Shown: piece by piece, positions 24,635 through 38,297 of the stretch | Position numbering within the stretch: the first letter of the stretch is position 1 | Layout: each line of letters begins with the position of its first letter | Assembly (NCBI GenBank): GCA_903875055.1 | Contig: CAIQUX010000184.1 | Span: forward strand, 1-38,959 | Length of the DNA stretch: 38,959 nucleotides | Direction: 5' to 3' | Origin: an uncultured Bacteroidota bacterium | Lineage (GTDB): Bacteria > Bacteroidota > Bacteroidia > Chitinophagales > Chitinophagaceae | The notes under the pieces: model-generated | The model's input: the letters and a program-made list of their open reading frames with translations, nothing else | Told to the model about the DNA's origin: nothing | The model's database searches: none | Program-made: the position numbers and the translations under genes

Positions 24635-27600
24635 TTGAACAACATACTTAGACATACCATACAATTTGTTCTCATTTCATCAGCCACGTTCATCGGGTTG
24701 ATTGCTAGTACAGCAAGTCCTTTTCATTATGAGAATTATGAAGTACCGGCAGTTGATACTCCTCAGTCCAAAAAAGATACGCTTCACTATCAGATTGAAG
24801 ATCGTCATGCAGACAAATTCAATGAAGACCCGAATGCAACATTCGACTTGAAGGATCCAGCTAATATCAAAACTAAAGTCGAATACGATCCGGAGAAAAA
24901 AGAGTATAATATCGAAGAAAAAGTTGGTGAATCGTATTACAGGCCTTCGACATATATGACCTATGATGAGTTTATGAAGTACCAATCGGGTAAAGATGAA
25001 GAGGCTTATTTCAAACGAAGATCCAGTACCATCACTCAGATTACAAAGAAAGGCGGCGTGATACCAAAAGTGAATTTAGGGAATGCACTGGTGGACAGGA
25101 TATTCGGTGGCAGTACGATTGAAGTGAAGCCGCAAGGAAATGTGGATTTATTTTTCGGTGGCAATTGGCAGAATGTCAAGAATCCTACGCTCGTTCAAAG
25201 TGCTCAGAAATACGGCATCTTCGATTTTGATATGAATATGAATATCAACCTCATGGCCAAGATCGGTGAGAAGATGAAAATGAATTTCAACTACAACACC
25301 AAAGCGACCTTCGATTTTGAAAATCAGCTTAAGTTGGAATATGCCGGTAAAGATGATGATATCATTAAGAAAATTGAAGCTGGTTATATCAGTTTCCCTT
25401 TGAAGACATCATTGATACAGGGTGTGCAGTCGTTGTTCGGATTAAAAACCCAGTTGCAGTTTGGACGGCTGATGGTCAATTCGGTGGTTTCACAACAACG
25501 GTCCAAAAAAGAAAGCTTCTCTGTGAAGGGCGGTGCTCAAACACAAACCTTCTCCATTCCCTGTGACCAATATGATGATTTCAGGTATTTTCTGTTAGGC
25601 CATAATTTCCGTGACAATTACAATAATGCCCTCAAGAATTTTCCTATCATCCAATCGTTGAACAATATCAACAAGGTGGAGGTATGGGTTACCAACCGAA
25701 ACGGTTCAACCGAAAATGCCAGAGATGTGGTTGCCTTGATGGATTTAGGTGAAGGGAAGCCTTACCGTACAGATTTTTATAAAGGCAACGATGGACAATG
25801 TGACAACAATGCCAATAGTCTTTATACCCAAATACTTCAATCACCCGGAGCCCGAGGTATCGGCACCGTGGTGAATTCCTTACTGAGTCTTGGCCTGAAA
25901 GGAAGAGTGGATTTTGAAAAAACATTTGCCCGAAAACTAAACCCTACAGAATATTCATACAATCCTCAACTTGGTTTCATTTCAGTGAATATCCAATTGC
26001 AACCAGATGACGTTTTGGGTGTGGCTTATCAGTATACCAATAACGGACGTGTTTCTCAGGTAGGAGAATTTGCTGCTACATTACCACCTGACAGCACGAA
26101 TCCCAAGGTGCTTTTCCTCAAAATGCTTAAATCGACATCTCCGGATCCGACCGTACCACTGTGGGACCTGATGATGAAAAATGTATATTCTTTAGGTGGA
26201 AGCGGTATCAGTCAGGAAGATTTTATAATGAATATTTTTTATCTTGACCCAGGTGGCGGGGAAAAACGATATTTGCCCGAAGGACCAAAAGCCGGTATTC
26301 CGTTAATCACTTTATTAAACCTTGATCGTCTGAACAATCAGGGAGATCCGCAACCGGATGGTCGATTTGATTATATCGAAGGCATCACAGTGAATTCAAT
26401 GATGGGAAAGATTATCTTCCCTGTACTGGAACCATTTGGAGAGGATTTAAAACCGGTTTTGGGTGGCAATACCCAACTCGAAAAGAAATACCTTTACAGG
26501 TTGTTGTATGATTCGACCAAGAATGTTGCCATTCAGTTTCCACAGTTCAACCGATTCCTTTTAAAAGGCACATTTAAATCAGCTAATTCATCTGAAATCT
26601 ATCTAGGAGGATTCAATATACCACAAGGCTCTGTAACTGTGAATGCCGGTGGACAACGTTTGATTGAAAATCAGGATTATACGATTGATTATGGTATCGG
26701 AAAATTAAGAATCATAAATGCAGGCCTCCTCAGTTCAGGTATTCCCATTCATGTGACGTATGAGAACAATGCAAATTTCGGGGCCATGCAGCAGAATTTT
26801 GTAGGCACCCGTTTTGATTACTTCGTCAATAACAATATCAATATCGGAGGTACTATGTTGCGTCTTTCAGAAAGGCCGTATTTCAACAAAGTCACCTTTG
26901 GCGAAGATCCGATTAAAAACACAGTCTTGGGACTGGATGCCAATGCCCAGAAGGATTTACCCCGACTCACTCGATTCATAGACCGTTTGCCTATTATAAC
27001 AACCTCAGCTCCTTCCATGGTCGTAGCTAGCGCAGAGGCCGCGGAAATAATTCCGGGACATAGCCGTTTTATTAATGACCAAAACGGAGAAGCGAATGTC
27101 TATATCGATGACTTTGAAGGCACACGTAGCGGTTATGACCTTAAATTCCCGGTCACTAGCTGGAGTCTGGCCAGTGCACCGCAGGAAGCTAAAGACAAAT
27201 TTGGGAATATCCTATTTCCTGAAGCTACATTGGTCAATGATTTGAGATATGGGAAAAACAGAGCCAAACTGGCGTGGTATAATCTGGATCCGTGTATGGT
27301 GGATCCGGGGCAGAGTTGCATTCCGGCACATCTGAAGACTGATACCGCTCAGTTATCAAATCCATATATTCACCTTGTTCAACCACAAGATGTATTTCCC
27401 AACAAATCATACACTGCCTTGCAAGGTAATCTGTCATCTTTTGACCTGGCTTTTTATCCTACTCAACGTGGTCCGTATAACTTTGACGCAACGAATATCA
27501 CAGCCAACGGTGAATTGCTGAATCCAAAGAAACGATGGGCTGGAATTATGAGACCGATCGATTTCAGCGATTTCGAAACAGCCAATGTGGAATTCATCGA

Positions 27601-30600
27601 ATTCTGGGTGCTCGATCCTTTTATCAATAAGCCAAACAGCAATGGCGGGTCCTTCTATATCAATCTGGGAAACATCTCTGAAGATATCCTGAAAGACTCC
27701 AGAAAGTTTTTTGAAAACGGGTTGCCCTACCCTGCCAATACCAATAAGATTGAAAAGACAAACTGGTCTTATATTCCGAAATTCCAGCAACAAATAACCC
27801 CTGCTTTTGACAACAACCCGGAAGCAAGAGCTTTACAGGACGTAGGGTATGATGGTATGAATGATGCCCAGGAGGCGGTAGAATTCAAGCCTTATCTGGA
27901 TGAACTAAGTGCTAATTTCGGTGCCAACTCACCAGTCTATCTTGCAGCTCTTGGAGATCCATCCAACGATGACTATCATCATTTCCGTGGATCGGATTAT
28001 GACAATGAAGCTGCATCTGTTTTCAAACGATATTCAAGATACAATAACCCACAAGGGAATTCACCTGTCACGGATAATTCATCACAATATTCGAACGCCT
28101 TCACTAATATCCCTGAATCAGAGGATATCAATCGTGATAATACACTGAATGAAAACGAGCAGTATTTTCAATACCGAATCGATCTGAAACCTAAGAATGA
28201 TCCGAGTATGCAAGTAGGTTCTAACTTTATTGTGAACCGCCAAAACACCACGGTTCATATGCCAAACAATACGAACCTGACAGAAACCTGGTATCAATTC
28301 AAGATTCCTATCAAGGAGTATACCGACCGGGTTGGTGCCATTCCTGATTTCAAATCAATCCGTTTCATGAGAATGTTCATGAATGATTTTGAAGATACCA
28401 CCTTCCTTCGTTTTGCCCGTTTGGAGTTAGGCCGTAATAGCTGGCGTCGTTATAATTTTTCTCTGAAGAATCCAGGTGAACTTGTACCTGATGACGATAA
28501 TAACGCAACTACCTTCAACTTATATTCGGTGAGTGTGGAAGAAAATAGTAGTCGTACACCCGTACCTTATGTTTCTCCTCCTGGAATACAACGCCAGCAA
28601 TTTCAGGTTTCCAACGGACAAAATGCCTTACAGAATGAGCAATCTCTGGCTATGCAAATCTGCGGACTGGAAGATGGAAATGCCAAGGGTGTTTTCAAAA
28701 CATTGGGTATGGACATGCGGAACTTCAAGCAGATGAAAATGTTCATCCATGCCGAAGGAACCGATAACGGTACTCCCTTAAAAGACAATGAACTCAGAGC
28801 CTTCATACGATTAGGAAGTGACTTTGTGAGCAACTATTATGAATACGAGATTCCGCTCAAAGTGACACCACCTACCACTAGCCGTGATCCGAATATCATT
28901 TGGCCTGAAGCCAACCGTATGGTGCTTGATTTTTCAAAACTCGTTCAAGTCAAATCTGATCGAAATAAAAGCGGCGGATCCTATGCAGTGCCGTATATCA
29001 TAAAAGATGATCTTGGCAATTATGTAAAGATTGTCGGCAATCCGAATCTGGGTGATGTAAAGATGGCTATGCTGGGTGTATTGAATCCTCAAAAAATGGC
29101 CAATGACCTCACCGATGATGGTGCAAAAAAATGTGCAGAAGTTTGGTTCAATGAACTTCGACTTTCGAATATGGATGAATCAGGTGGATATGCCGCCTTA
29201 GGAAAGGTAGATTTGCAGCTGGCCGATCTGGGAACCGTAAAAATGAGCGGTAGCATGCATACCGCCGGATACGGCAATATCGATCAACGAGTCAATCAGC
29301 GGGCCAAAGAGAATCTTTCTCAATTTGACGTCTCTGCCAATATCAATGCAGGTAAATTCACACCTAAAAGTTGGGGTGTGCAATTACCTATCTTTGCAGG
29401 TTATTCCCAAACCGTAAGCAACCCGGTATACGACCCATATGATATGGATATCAAGTTCAGTGACAAAGTCAAGAACTACAGCGGTAAAACCAAAGATTCT
29501 GTTAAGAAAGCCGCACAAGACTTTACATCGGTCAAGAGTATCAACTTCCAAAATGTACGTGTGGCACCCATAAATAATAAGAAAAGACAAATCTGGGACC
29601 TTCAGAATTTCGATTTGAGTTATTCATATACACAAACTGACAAACACAATCCTTTACTTGAAAAAGACCAACTGGACGAACATCATGCAAGTCTTGGATA
29701 TACATACTCATCCAAAGTAAAACCTATAGAACCGTTCAAGAAACTTATTTCTCAAAAAAAGAAATACCTCTATTTGATACGGGATTTTAACTTCAATGTC
29801 CTGCCGACCAATTTTACTTTCCGAAATAATATCAACCGGACTATGGGTGAAACGAGAGTCAGGAATATTGATGAAGGTGCTTACCCTATCACGCCGAATT
29901 ATTATAAATTCTTTACTTGGGTAAGAACATATACATTACGTTGGGATCTCACCAAAGCTTTGTCCTTTGATTATAATGCTGCCAACAATTCACGGGTGGA
30001 TGAACCATTTGGGCGATTGAATACACAGGCTAAAAAAGATACTTTCTGGCACAATTTCGGTCGTCTGGGAAGGAATACCGGTTATACCCAATCATTGAAT
30101 GCCAACTATACTGTGCCTATGTCAAAGGTACCTTTACTGGACTGGACTACCGTTCGTGCCAGTTATGGATCAACGTATCTGTGGACTAGTTCATCTTTGC
30201 TTGCCAAGAACCTTGGAAATGTCATAGGGAATACACAAAATAAACAGGTGAATGGTGAGATGGACTTTAACAAGCTTTACAATAAAGTCAAGATACTTCG
30301 CATCATCAACGGGCCATTGGCCAATACACCACCTCGCGGTGGTAAAGAGAATCCTGGTGGGAAAGGTGGTGATAAGAAATCGGATACGAATATAGAGAAA
30401 GGCGGTGGAGGAAAAGGTGATCCGGGACGAGGAGATATAGGAAAAGGTGACTACGGCCGAACGGATAATATTCCGAGTGGTCCGGGAAAAGATGGAGGAT
30501 CAGGTAAGGATGTAGGTTCTGTGACAGATCGTGAAATTAAATCGCCGGATGTCATCAAGAATAACGATCAGAAAGACAGTAAGGATATTGCAAGAAACAC

Positions 30601-32209
30601 ACCGAATCAACCAGCTAATAACAACACAGGTGGAACCTCGGGCAGCAGCAGTGCGAGTGGTGGTAATGGAAGCGGCGGCGGTAAAAGCATCACATCAAAA
30701 GACAGCACCAATAAAAAAGGATCAGCCCCGATTGCTAAAGGTGCTAAGAAGCCAGTCAAGAAGAAGAAAGAGCCAAATCCTCCTGAATCTATACGTGCCA
30801 TAGGAAAATTGTTGATGATGGTGAAACGGGCTACGATCAATTACAATGAAAACCAGGGTACTACCCTGCCAGGTTATATGGACAGCACCCAATATTTTGG
30901 GATGAATTTCAGGAATAAGAATGATCCATCGCTATTCGCCTTCGGTTATCAACCAGACAGGTTGTGGCTTGAAGGAAAAGGAAAAGATAATGTGTTGACG
31001 AGAGATTCCTTATTCAACGCTCCATTCCAACAACATTATTCACAAACCATGAATATCACGGCTAACCTTGAACCGTTTAAAGATTTCAAATTGGATTTCA
31101 CCATGATGAAAACTTTCAATAAGGCGCATTCCGAATTATATAAGGATACTGTTGGGGGTACCAATGATTATATCCATCTGAATCCGTATGAAACCGGTGG
31201 ATTCAGCATATCGTACGTGGCCTTCAATACCATGTTCCAGAAACGTGGTGCTGATAATCTAACAAGAGCCTTCTTTGATTTTGAAAGCAACCGTAAGGTC
31301 ATCTCAAACCGTTTAGGGCTTATTAACCCTTATACTGCCAATGCACAAGCACCTGAAGATCAAGAATACAAAAAAGGATACACCCGATACTCGCAAGAGG
31401 TTTTAATACCTGCTTTCCTGGCGGCATATACAGGCAAAGATCCTTCGACCTACCCGCTGATATCAAATGACAATGAGAATATCAAATCGAATCCGTTCAA
31501 GCATATCTTACCAAAACCGAACTGGCGTTTAAACTATAACGGCTTATCAAGAACCAAACCGTTCCGTAAGATATTCCAGAGTTTTACTCTCACCCATGCA
31601 TATTCAGGCACCTTGTCGATGAACAGCTTCACATCATCGTTATTGTATCGTGATGTATATGCTTTAGGATTCCCATCGTTTATCGATTCTGTTTCGCATA
31701 ACTATGTACCATATTTTTCGGTACCGAACATGACCATCACCGAAAACTTTGGACCTTTATTAGGAATCGATGCCACTTTCAAGAATTCCCTGAATCTGCG
31801 CATCGAATACAAGAAATCACGTATCCTGAGCATGAGCCTGGTTGATTATCAATTGAGTGAGACCAATAGCAAGGAGATCACCTTTGGTGGTGGTATGCGA
31901 CTGAAGAAAGTGCGTATTCCGATCAAGTATTTCGGAATCGATAAGAAGCGAAGCGATATCAATATCAAGGCTGATTTCGGATTGCGTGATGATTTCACTA
32001 CCATCAACCGATTGGATCAGGAAGAATCAAAAGCTACGAGGGGGCAAAAAGTCATCACCATCTCTCCTTCGATTGATTATATCTACAGTCAGACCCTGAC
32101 CTTACGATTCTTCATGGACCGACGACAAAGCATACCGTATGTTTCAAACGCTTTCCCTATCACCACTACACGTGGCGGTTTGATGGTGAGGTTCCTCTTT
32201 GGAAATTAG
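24635..32209 (+). CDS. sprA: Cell-surface / T9SS translocon protein SprA
   Basis: 2524 aa; long beta-rich outer-membrane protein directly after ruvA; signal-like N-terminus; FINDQNGEANVYIDDFEGTRSGYDLKFPVTSWSLAS and C-terminal barrel typical of SprA. Confidence 0.95.
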   Translation: MNNILRHTIQFVLISSATFIGLIASTASPFHYENYEVPAVDTPQSKKDTLHYQIEDRHADKFNEDPNATFDLKDPANIKTKVEYDPEKKEYNIEEKVGESYYRPSTYMTYDEFMKYQSGKDEEAYFKRRSSTITQITKKGGVIPKVNLGNALVDRIFGGSTIEVKPQGNVDLFFGGNWQNVKNPTLVQSAQKYGIFDFDMNMNINLMAKIGEKMKMNFNYNTKATFDFENQLKLEYAGKDDDIIKKIEAGYISFPLKTSLIQGVQSLFGLKTQLQFGRLMVNSVVSQQRSKKESFSVKGGAQTQTFSIPCDQYDDFRYFLLGHNFRDNYNNALKNFPIIQSLNNINKVEVWVTNRNGSTENARDVVALMDLGEGKPYRTDFYKGNDGQCDNNANSLYTQILQSPGARGIGTVVNSLLSLGLKGRVDFEKTFARKLNPTEYSYNPQLGFISVNIQLQPDDVLGVAYQYTNNGRVSQVGEFAATLPPDSTNPKVLFLKMLKSTSPDPTVPLWDLMMKNVYSLGGSGISQEDFIMNIFYLDPGGGEKRYLPEGPKAGIPLITLLNLDRLNNQGDPQPDGRFDYIEGITVNSMMGKIIFPVLEPFGEDLKPVLGGNTQLEKKYLYRLLYDSTKNVAIQFPQFNRFLLKGTFKSANSSEIYLGGFNIPQGSVTVNAGGQRLIENQDYTIDYGIGKLRIINAGLLSSGIPIHVTYENNANFGAMQQNFVGTRFDYFVNNNINIGGTMLRLSERPYFNKVTFGEDPIKNTVLGLDANAQKDLPRLTRFIDRLPIITTSAPSMVVASAEAAEIIPGHSRFINDQNGEANVYIDDFEGTRSGYDLKFPVTSWSLASAPQEAKDKFGNILFPEATLVNDLRYGKNRAKLAWYNLDPCMVDPGQSCIPAHLKTDTAQLSNPYIHLVQPQDVFPNKSYTALQGNLSSFDLAFYPTQRGPYNFDATNITANGELLNPKKRWAGIMRPIDFSDFETANVEFIEFWVLDPFINKPNSNGGSFYINLGNISEDILKDSRKFFENGLPYPANTNKIEKTNWSYIPKFQQQITPAFDNNPEARALQDVGYDGMNDAQEAVEFKPYLDELSANFGANSPVYLAALGDPSNDDYHHFRGSDYDNEAASVFKRYSRYNNPQGNSPVTDNSSQYSNAFTNIPESEDINRDNTLNENEQYFQYRIDLKPKNDPSMQVGSNFIVNRQNTTVHMPNNTNLTETWYQFKIPIKEYTDRVGAIPDFKSIRFMRMFMNDFEDTTFLRFARLELGRNSWRRYNFSLKNPGELVPDDDNNATTFNLYSVSVEENSSRTPVPYVSPPGIQRQQFQVSNGQNALQNEQSLAMQICGLEDGNAKGVFKTLGMDMRNFKQMKMFIHAEGTDNGTPLKDNELRAFIRLGSDFVSNYYEYEIPLKVTPPTTSRDPNIIWPEANRMVLDFSKLVQVKSDRNKSGGSYAVPYIIKDDLGNYVKIVGNPNLGDVKMAMLGVLNPQKMANDLTDDGAKKCAEVWFNELRLSNMDESGGYAALGKVDLQLADLGTVKMSGSMHTAGYGNIDQRVNQRAKENLSQFDVSANINAGKFTPKSWGVQLPIFAGYSQTVSNPVYDPYDMDIKFSDKVKNYSGKTKDSVKKAAQDFTSVKSINFQNVRVAPINNKKRQIWDLQNFDLSYSYTQTDKHNPLLEKDQLDEHHASLGYTYSSKVKPIEPFKKLISQKKKYLYLIRDFNFNVLPTNFTFRNNINRTMGETRVRNIDEGAYPITPNYYKFFTWVRTYTLRWDLTKALSFDYNAANNSRVDEPFGRLNTQAKKDTFWHNFGRLGRNTGYTQSLNANYTVPMSKVPLLDWTTVRASYGSTYLWTSSSLLAKNLGNVIGNTQNKQVNGEMDFNKLYNKVKILRIINGPLANTPPRGGKENPGGKGGDKKSDTNIEKGGGGKGDPGRGDIGKGDYGRTDNIPSGPGKDGGSGKDVGSVTDREIKSPDVIKNNDQKDSKDIARNTPNQPANNNTGGTSGSSSASGGNGSGGGKSITSKDSTNKKGSAPIAKGAKKPVKKKKEPNPPESIRAIGKLLMMVKRATINYNENQGTTLPGYMDSTQYFGMNFRNKNDPSLFAFGYQPDRLWLEGKGKDNVLTRDSLFNAPFQQHYSQTMNITANLEPFKDFKLDFTMMKTFNKAHSELYKDTVGGTNDYIHLNPYETGGFSISYVAFNTMFQKRGADNLTRAFFDFESNRKVISNRLGLINPYTANAQAPEDQEYKKGYTRYSQEVLIPAFLAAYTGKDPSTYPLISNDNENIKSNPFKHILPKPNWRLNYNGLSRTKPFRKIFQSFTLTHAYSGTLSMNSFTSSLLYRDVYALGFPSFIDSVSHNYVPYFSVPNMTITENFGPLLGIDATFKNSLNLRIEYKKSRILSMSLVDYQLSETNSKEITFGGGMRLKKVRIPIKYFGIDKKRSDINIKADFGLRDDFTTINRLDQEESKATRGQKVITISPSIDYIYSQTLTLRFFMDRRQSIPYVSNAFPITTTRGGLMVRFLFGN

Positions 32210-35675: not shown

Positions 35676-37169
35676 TTATTCAACCACCAATTTCCTGCTA
35701 TACTTTCCATCGATTTGCAACAGATAAATACCTGAAGGAAGTCCTTGCGTATTAATTTCTATTTGACTAACAGGCTTTGATTTCATTTCAAATACCAGTT
35801 GCGAAAGCATCGTGTATATTTTTATTTCACTGAAATTCTCACTTGCTGTTATTGTTACTTTACCAATCGCCGGATTAGGATATATATTAATTTCAGGAGT
35901 TTTACTGCTTACCTCATTAGTATTTAACGGCCAACATTCCTTTGCCCCCAACCCATAGTTAGGCATACAAGGTGGTGTACCCACATACGCATTAGCTCCC
36001 AAGCTATCTAATCGCAAGCATCGCGGGCAAAAATTACATCCTGCACCTTTTACATCGGGGTTATCAATCACGCTCATCTGCTTGCTTAGACCGGCGAAGT
36101 TTCCTATATACAATTTATCATCAGGGCCTAAATAAGAGGCATCATAGTCTTGAAATTTCTGGTACGATGTATCCAAGCCAGCAACATGATACCAAGTAGT
36201 ATCTTGCAAATCATACTACCAAATATTCGACATACTTATGACATACAAGAGTTTACCGTTCGGAGAATAGGCTAAACCGACTGACAAATGCTCTGGAAGT
36301 GTAGTATCAGCAGGGTCATGTTGAGAGCCGACAGGCATGATAATTACTTTTGGATTACTTAGTATTCCATAGCATCTGTCAAAATCAGCTAAGAAAATTT
36401 GCCCACTTGAACCTCCATGTGTTGTTGTGGCATACTGGCTACCATCACTACTGAAAACACTTTGGCCCCGTATGTCCCATCCCCCCCAAACAGGAGCACT
36501 GAATATTTGTTTTCCCTTGTCATAAATACTATCCTGAGTAAAAAGGAATTTGTATATTATGTTGCTATCACCTGCTTGCTTTAATAACCACCAGTCCTTA
36601 CCATTAGAATGCTTGCATGCCATCATTTGTGTCTTACTTAGTGATGCATTTTGCATAAGTGGCTGCATTTGCTTTACAACTTTTCCTGCTCCTCCATTCG
36701 CTTTCATATCAATTGTATTATATAGTAACAAATCAAAAAAACAGTGATTGTTTGAAAGGCAATCGGCGAATTGCGCGTTACTGAATGTGGGAGTGATGAA
36801 ATAGTAAATACTGCTATCCATAGGTAAAAAAATGCTTGATTGTGAGTACATACTCCATCCATCTTCGTGTAGATAAAAATCAATCGGAATTAACGTATGA
36901 CCACCATCCAAATAATTTGCGTTACTGTCATACACATTATAGCCGTCACTACATAATAAAAGATGACCATTTGTGTCACAAATATTAGAATTTCCTTTTG
37001 TGAAGTAGCTATTGTAATATACATTATTGTTTGAGATGATACTACTCCCAACAAATCTTATTCTTTGCCCGCCGGCCCCGGTTATCCATTCATTACCAAG
37101 CTTATTTTGACTTAGGAGAGGCAAAACACAAAAGACTAGTAACGCCATTAATATTGCTTTCTTCATCAT
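35676..37169 (-). pseudogene. T9SS type A sorting-domain protein interrupted by one in-frame TAG
   Basis: ORFs 36216-37169 and 35676-36209 lie in the same frame, separated by TAG at 36216-36218: ...SMSNIW*YDLQDTTWYHVAG...; C-terminus NIYPNPAIGKVTI...GIYLLQIDGKYSRKLVVE is a T9SS sorting domain. Confidence 0.85.
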
Positions 37170-37424
37170 TAGTTTATTTTCTTACCCAAAGGCTTGTATC
37201 CCTGCTAACCTTAATTCTCCATATCCACAGCAAAGAGTTCAACTCAGTTCTCTTATCCTTTCGGACTCGACGGTCTGATGTATTTTGAATCATAATCACT
37301 CTCAAATATACTCATGATATGGCTAACGGTGTATCGTATTCTTTTTCGCGGCGACTGACTTGTGAGTTGAGGATACATGGAGTATTTGTTTTGAGATTCG
37401 TGGATTAATAATGAGAGGAAAGGA

Positions 37425-37497
37425 AGGACCGCGGACAATGGACCGCAGACGATGGTCAGTTGACGATGGTCCGTTGACGATGGTCGATGGTCAAATG
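37425..37497. repeat. Degenerate short direct repeats (left flank of repeat region)
   Basis: ggaccgcggacaatggaccgcagacgatggtcagttgacgatggtccgttgacgatggtcgatggtc: repeated ttgacgatggtc-type words. Confidence 0.75.
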
Positions 37498-37509
37498 TTC
37501 AATAACGAT

Positions 37510-38034
37510 GGCATAATGATAAACCGCCACACGATCATGATGACCGACGACGACATTATGACCGATGACGATGGCATAATGATAAACCGCCACACGATCA
37601 TGATCACCGACGACGACATAATGACCGATGACGATGGCATAATGATAAACCGCCACTCAATTATGATCACCGACGACGACATTATGACCGATGACGATGG
37701 CATAATGATAAACCGCCACTCGATCATGATGACCGACGACGACATAATGATATCCGACGATGACATTCTGATAAATGCGGATGCAATAATGATAAAACCG
37801 GATGCAATAATGATAAAACCGGACGACATTATGACCGATGCGGATGCGATAATGATAAAACCGGATGCAATAATGATAAAACCGGACGACATTATGACCG
37901 ATGCGGATGCAATAATGATAAAACCGGATGCAATAATGATAAAACCGGACGACATTATGACCGATGCGGATGCGATAATGATAAAACCGGACGACATTAT
38001 GACCGATGCGGATGCGATAATGATAAATGATGAT
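37510..38034 (+). repeat. Tandem array of 25 in-register 21-bp units with 63-bp higher-order period
   Basis: Units such as gatgcaataatgataaaaccg and gacgacattatgaccgatgcg; in + frame encodes xIM[I/M/T/L]xxx heptads within ORF 37411-38040; no indel across 525 bp. Confidence 0.92.
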
Positions 38035-38059
38035 AAATGACCACTGACGATGGACCACC

Positions 38060-38254
38060 GACCATGGTCAATGGTGGATGGTCGATGTTCGATGACAGCC
38101 GACCATGGTCAATGGTGGATGGTCTATAGTCGATGACAGCCGACCATGGTCAATGGTGGATGGTCGATGTTCGATGACAGCCGACCATGGTCAATGGTGG
38201 ATGGTCGATGTTCGATGACAGCCGAGCATGGTCGATCGTCAATGGTCTATGGTC
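38060..38254. repeat. 41-bp direct repeats, four copies plus a degenerate fifth
   Basis: gaccatggtcaatggtggatggtcgatgttcgatgacagcc at 38060, 38101, 38142, 38183; partial/degenerate from 38224. Confidence 0.95.
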
Positions 38255-38297
38255 TAAAATACTATCAAGCAGATTGTGTAAACAGCTTGCAAAGCCG

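Follow-up and report, generated by a model that had tools for sequence, protein, structure and literature searches.

Noncoding 21-bp Intergenic Minisatellites with IS Ends at Their Edges in a Bacteroidota Genome

Several IS insert preferentially into REP sequences, which are extragenic repeats (Tobes and Pareja 2006, PMC1525189). BrickBuilt, a minisatellite-MITE of Porphyromonas gingivalis, combines a 23-nt unit with IS-like terminal repeats (PMC4596501). TAACTGA and other heptamer direct repeats were reported from Beggiatoaceae, cyanobacteria, and some Bacteroidetes (MacGregor 2015, PMC4679880). The DNA analysed here (the window, 38,959 nucleotides) is the entire contig C184 of genome G000; near its right end, several tandem arrays lie beside a single terminal inverted repeat (TIR) of the IS256 family (Table 1). 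As with REP sequences, extragenic repeats would act as insertion places for several IS; however, the repeats found here form tandem arrays with a 21-bp unit, are unrelated in sequence, share no palindrome, and have the IS at the array edge, whereas REP-targeting IS sit within a defined REP sequence. BrickBuilt also occurs in the Bacteroidota and is likewise an intergenic tandem array combined with IS-like terminal repeats, but it has one shared unit enclosed in a leader and a tail that have inverted ends. In the present case, the array lies outside the TIR, only one TIR is found near each array, and the unit differs by locus, so that both defining features of a BrickBuilt-type MITE are absent and this identity was rejected. 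The heptamer repeats also form intergenic direct-repeat arrays, long in some Bacteroidetes, and the 38058-38251 array of the window is built of heptamers; in contrast to the 7-bp unit of the TAACTGA-like repeats, no peak at period 7 is seen for the 21-bp arrays taken together. The likeness to IS256 (Mutator) elements consists of the TIR and, in related genomes, of a PF00872 transposase and 8-bp target duplications, whereas the window has one TIR and no transposase beside it. Insertions of the IS256 family generate target duplications of 8-9 bp. In a partial coverage of the literature, no published description of unrelated-sequence 21-bp arrays with IS at their edges was found.

Table 1. Arrays, terminal repeat, and adjoining reading frames at the right end of the window.
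Feature	Position	Strand	Basis
Secreted-protein-like gene, 5′ end toward the arrays	36216..37169	-	ORF list; Pfam without match
Open frame through the main array, 209 aa, judged non-gene	37411..38040	+	ORF list, codon-position tests, Pfam
Short tandem array of 14-bp units (GACGATGGTCAGTT), adjoining the main array on its left	37448..37485	none	TRF
Main array, 25 x 21-bp units	37510..38034	none	Sequence reading, TRF, lag comparison, unit alignment
Second array, units of about 41 bp built of heptamers, between main array and IS end	38058..38251	none	TRF
Solitary IS256-family TIR, CTATCAAGCAGATTGTGTAAAC	about 38262..38283	+	Motif searches
TPR gene, cut by the contig end	38298..38957	-	ORF list, Pfam

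The main array was read directly from the letters as 25 units of 21 bp, the first starting GGCATAATG, with zero indels in register. The tandem repeat finder (TRF) returned a period of 21 across both halves and a period of 63 in each half (37505-37750, 94% match; 37775-37991, 98% match), with scores of 393-436 that are far above chance. The left half consists of one 63-bp type and the right half of a second. Within the 21-bp unit, the core ATNATGA is conserved and the rest is variable, and the match within the array was 0.62 at lag 21 and 0.26 at lag 7. The description given in the initial annotation, an indel-free array of 25 units with two higher-order 63-bp types, was therefore borne out both by direct reading and by the TRF analysis that it had proposed. 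Re-translation returned the heptads listed there (GIMINRH/[TS]IM[IM]TDD/DIMTDDD and AIMIKPD/AIMIKPD/DIMTDAD), and the minus-strand ORFs that it had pointed out, at 37491-37997 and 37657-38058, are present.

The second array and the TIR lie outside the coordinates of the initial annotation. The heptamers of this array are TGGTCAA, TGGTGGA, TGGTCGA, TGTTCGA, TGACAGC, and CGACCA, and the array abuts the terminal repeat. The window TIR, CTATCAAGCAGATTGTGTAAAC, has its outer end toward the arrays and shows four mismatches to the consensus GTGTAAAGTAGATTGTGTAAAC; it is a diverged copy, separated from the main array by the 41-bp array. The 3′ end of the TPR gene is found 14 bp past the TIR, and a paralogue of this gene on contig C131 has the same terminal repeat together with an unrelated array. 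On the other side, the ORF at 35676-36209, which adjoins the secreted-protein-like gene, carries a Por secretion tail. Further away, a 2524-aa SprA gene (gliding, type IX secretion) occupies 24635-32209, in agreement with a Bacteroidota origin of the DNA.

Two readings of the array had been put forward in the initial annotation, a repetitive peptide gene and a noncoding, satellite-like array whose frame is open because the period is divisible by 3. In favour of a gene encoding a repeated heptad peptide (xIM[I/T]xxD), the xIM frame is stop-free in the window array and in its two paralogues in G000 (on contigs C91 and C287), and the differences between window copies at a 63-bp lag fall at codon positions 1:2:3 in the ratio 14:15:39. 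However, at the same lag the C91 array shows no bias (23:24:22) and the C287 array little (18:20:26). When the 21 columns were permuted and the choice of frame was allowed for, the third-position excess, examined as the initial annotation had suggested, was not significant (best-of-three-frames p 0.06 for the window, 0.21 and 0.92 for the paralogues; pooled p over the three arrays 0.12). The minus-strand frames of the array are nearly as open as the xIM frame, and the unrelated arrays of G000 that were tested each have at least one stop-free frame. The array ORF had no Pfam match, the main array had no Rfam match at E up to 1, and the one match of the array peptide in the PDB, a weak one to a fucosyltransferase (E 0.07), was taken as chance. 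The search of relatives that had also been suggested was positive within G000, where the array family recurs at two more loci, and negative elsewhere in the family, nothing similar to the array DNA being found in 298 other genomes. With no significant codon bias, further frames just as open, nothing in Pfam, and no counterpart in the 298 other family genomes, the heptad peptide gene was rejected and is very improbable. The main array is thus confirmed as a noncoding intergenic minisatellite, as the second reading had it. Furthermore, a 22-bp array (L103) exists in G000, indicating that the array process needs no multiples of three, and the period-21 arrays are mostly unrelated in sequence, indicating that the period is a property of the class rather than a consequence of codons. 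Two other identities were also rejected: a CRISPR array, because the units abut without spacers and inspection of the window ORFs revealed no cas-like ORF, and a plasmid or phage origin, because the array had no match among plasmids or phages.

TRF analysis of an unbiased sample of G000 (69 contigs, 539 kb) revealed eight intergenic arrays with a period of 21 or its multiples (21/42/63/84), mostly unrelated in sequence (L077, L095, L101, L113, L117, L119, L129, and L142, with L119 counted once). Extrapolated to the 3.47 Mb of the genome, this gives roughly 50-60 of them. The sample's one two-helical-turn array with a unit other than 21 bp is L103, a 22/44/66-bp intergenic array at 4947-5186 of contig C27; the remaining tandem repeats of the sample are mostly long coding repeats. 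Both further loci of the window family, on C91 and C287, have the same IS256-type end motif. The class is patchy among relatives (all genomes but one being draft assemblies), as zero period-21 arrays were found in 400 kb sampled from the complete, congeneric genome G002, four intergenic ones in 200 kb sampled from G003, and two short ones in G004.

A length of 21 bp corresponds to about two turns of the B-DNA helix. Periods of 18 and 24 hardly occur among the arrays, which makes two helical turns the obvious candidate reason for a unit of 21, and sometimes 22, bp. Two other explanations of the unit were rejected. A composition of three heptamers holds only for the neighbouring 41-bp array, and the class shows no elevation at lags 7 and 14. 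Tandem hairpins as a common principle would be in keeping with the units of the class, which fold back more than shuffled sequences (mean z -0.85 over 39 arrays, p 0.0025); this enrichment is moderate, however, and the window family is unstructured, its unit being no more foldable than shuffles (z +0.74). Another apparent dispersed extragenic repeat, short, palindromic, and built around CCTCGGTTCGTGTCC, recurs beside the 21-bp arrays at L095 (4934-5260) and L196.

The end motif is the end of an IS256-family element. Nine copies of its 13-mer, AGATTGTGTAAAC, are present in G000, and the reversed control gave zero matches. The copy on contig C60 adjoins a PF00872 transposase fragment, and at three loci of other genomes (L156, L163, and L157), the DNA just inside the motif encodes PF00872 proteins. 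In bin-7433 (CAIWKO), four 8-bp target duplications allow the flanks of this IS to be paired. The window copy is solitary, and like it most G000 sites have a single terminal repeat and lack an IS body. Solitary IS256-type TIRs without an array were also seen at L008 (G008, contig C2) and L180, behind an rpoB-like 3′ end and its terminator.

Where arrays accompany these ends, they lie outside them. The comparison covered 57 distinct TIR sites in G000, in related genomes, and at 46 loci of named MAGs, nearly all of them Bacteroidota. At least 24 of the sites have a strong tandem array within 300 bp outside the TIR (21 with period 21 and three with period 22), and further sites have 42-bp units; in the 300 bp inside the TIR, an array was present at 0 of 28. 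A period-21 array occurs in 0.35% of random G000 windows. The mean autocorrelation outside the TIRs peaks at 42, 21, and 63, and two Desulfuromonadales loci among the sites are without arrays. A TIR weight-matrix scan of the 539-kb sample gave one match above the reversed-sequence background, correctly oriented beside an array. Other elements behave likewise: a second TIR type (TGTTCAATAAACTGTGTCA) adjoins arrays at four of four sites in G000, and in G003 all four copies of another repeated element's end, TGACCCCTCCTAAAATTACTTGACAC, adjoin 21-bp arrays, a different one each time (L253-L256, contig ends). The window is one instance of an array-IS adjacency that extends well beyond it and has good statistical support.

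The adjacency could arise if the IS made the arrays. Transposase activity or break repair at an IS end would then duplicate about 21 bp of flank, the arrays would grow outward from the TIRs, and solitary TIRs would be remnants after IS loss. Consistent with such a genesis, the arrays lie outside the TIR and never inside it, several reach exactly the IS terminus (as at L256 and L163), and the paralogous TPR genes keep the TIR while their arrays are unrelated. The four bin-7433 insertions with 8-bp duplications also have an array on exactly one side each, whose end lies no more than about two units from the insertion. However, regularity is lowest in the unit next to the IS, with an identity of 0.46 in the first 30 bp compared with 0.67 further out. 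At three loci the GCAGCAG array family adjoins an end of type 2, and at a fourth it has a type-1 end on the opposite array edge; arrays with no recognisable IS end also occur (L095, L129, and L142). We know of no IS256 step that yields 21-bp duplications. On this evidence, IS-driven genesis is considered unlikely, and IS256-specific genesis as the sole cause is weakened by the second TIR type and the different element of G003. At the GCAGCAG loci L193, L194, and L195 (G000 contigs C25, C185, and C323), the 3′ ends of paralogous genes share a terminator, a type-2 TIR, and the array, indicating that segments comprising gene end and array were duplicated whole.

The C91 and C287 loci share an array family, an array-end junction, and a TIR but not their flanks, as would be expected of a dispersed nonautonomous cassette, in which array and one TIR are mobile as a unit by means of an IS256 transposase acting in trans. 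A cassette of this kind appears distinctly unlikely, as a single TIR is found, oriented with the array outside the element, and the array sequences usually differ between loci. The orthologous sites examined in relatives have neither array nor terminal repeat, and they yielded no clean pair having array or TIR alone.

The best explanation is probably that helical-length intergenic minisatellites collect IS insertions at their edges. The arrays would come first and the IS second. The arrays would grow and homogenise by slippage or unequal recombination, with the 21-bp length reflecting helical phase, and their edges would be places where IS of several kinds land or persist. Insertions inside arrays may be rare because they are disfavoured, or because an IS within an array, being flanked by direct repeats, would easily be lost by recombination between them, so that edge insertions remain. 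In the window, all that would remain of them is one IS256-type terminal repeat, with the arrays on one side and the TPR gene on the other. Edges as places of landing or survival are favoured over IS ends as the origin of the arrays: the two end types at opposite edges of the GCAGCAG family fit arrays that exist independently of IS, and least regular units nearest the IS are as expected for a worn array edge. Several observations weigh against this explanation. The one-sided arrays that reach the IS terminus also fit growth from an IS end, terminal repeats that stand alone with no IS body are not simple to explain, the three arrays named above show no recognisable IS end, and the window TIR is diverged and parted from the main array.

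Noncoding 21-bp arrays explain spurious repetitive ORFs in annotation. It is conceivable, if rather doubtful, that a dedicated length-counting process of the Bacteroidota sets the two-turn unit and that IS families recognise the phased edge, the two forming a coupled system. Such a process, linked to a host factor or a transposase, would act whatever the sequence and would make or maintain the arrays. Unrelated arrays that share one unit length of two helical turns and have IS ends at their edges in many Bacteroidota would point to a common, sequence-blind mechanism of minisatellite formation or IS targeting.
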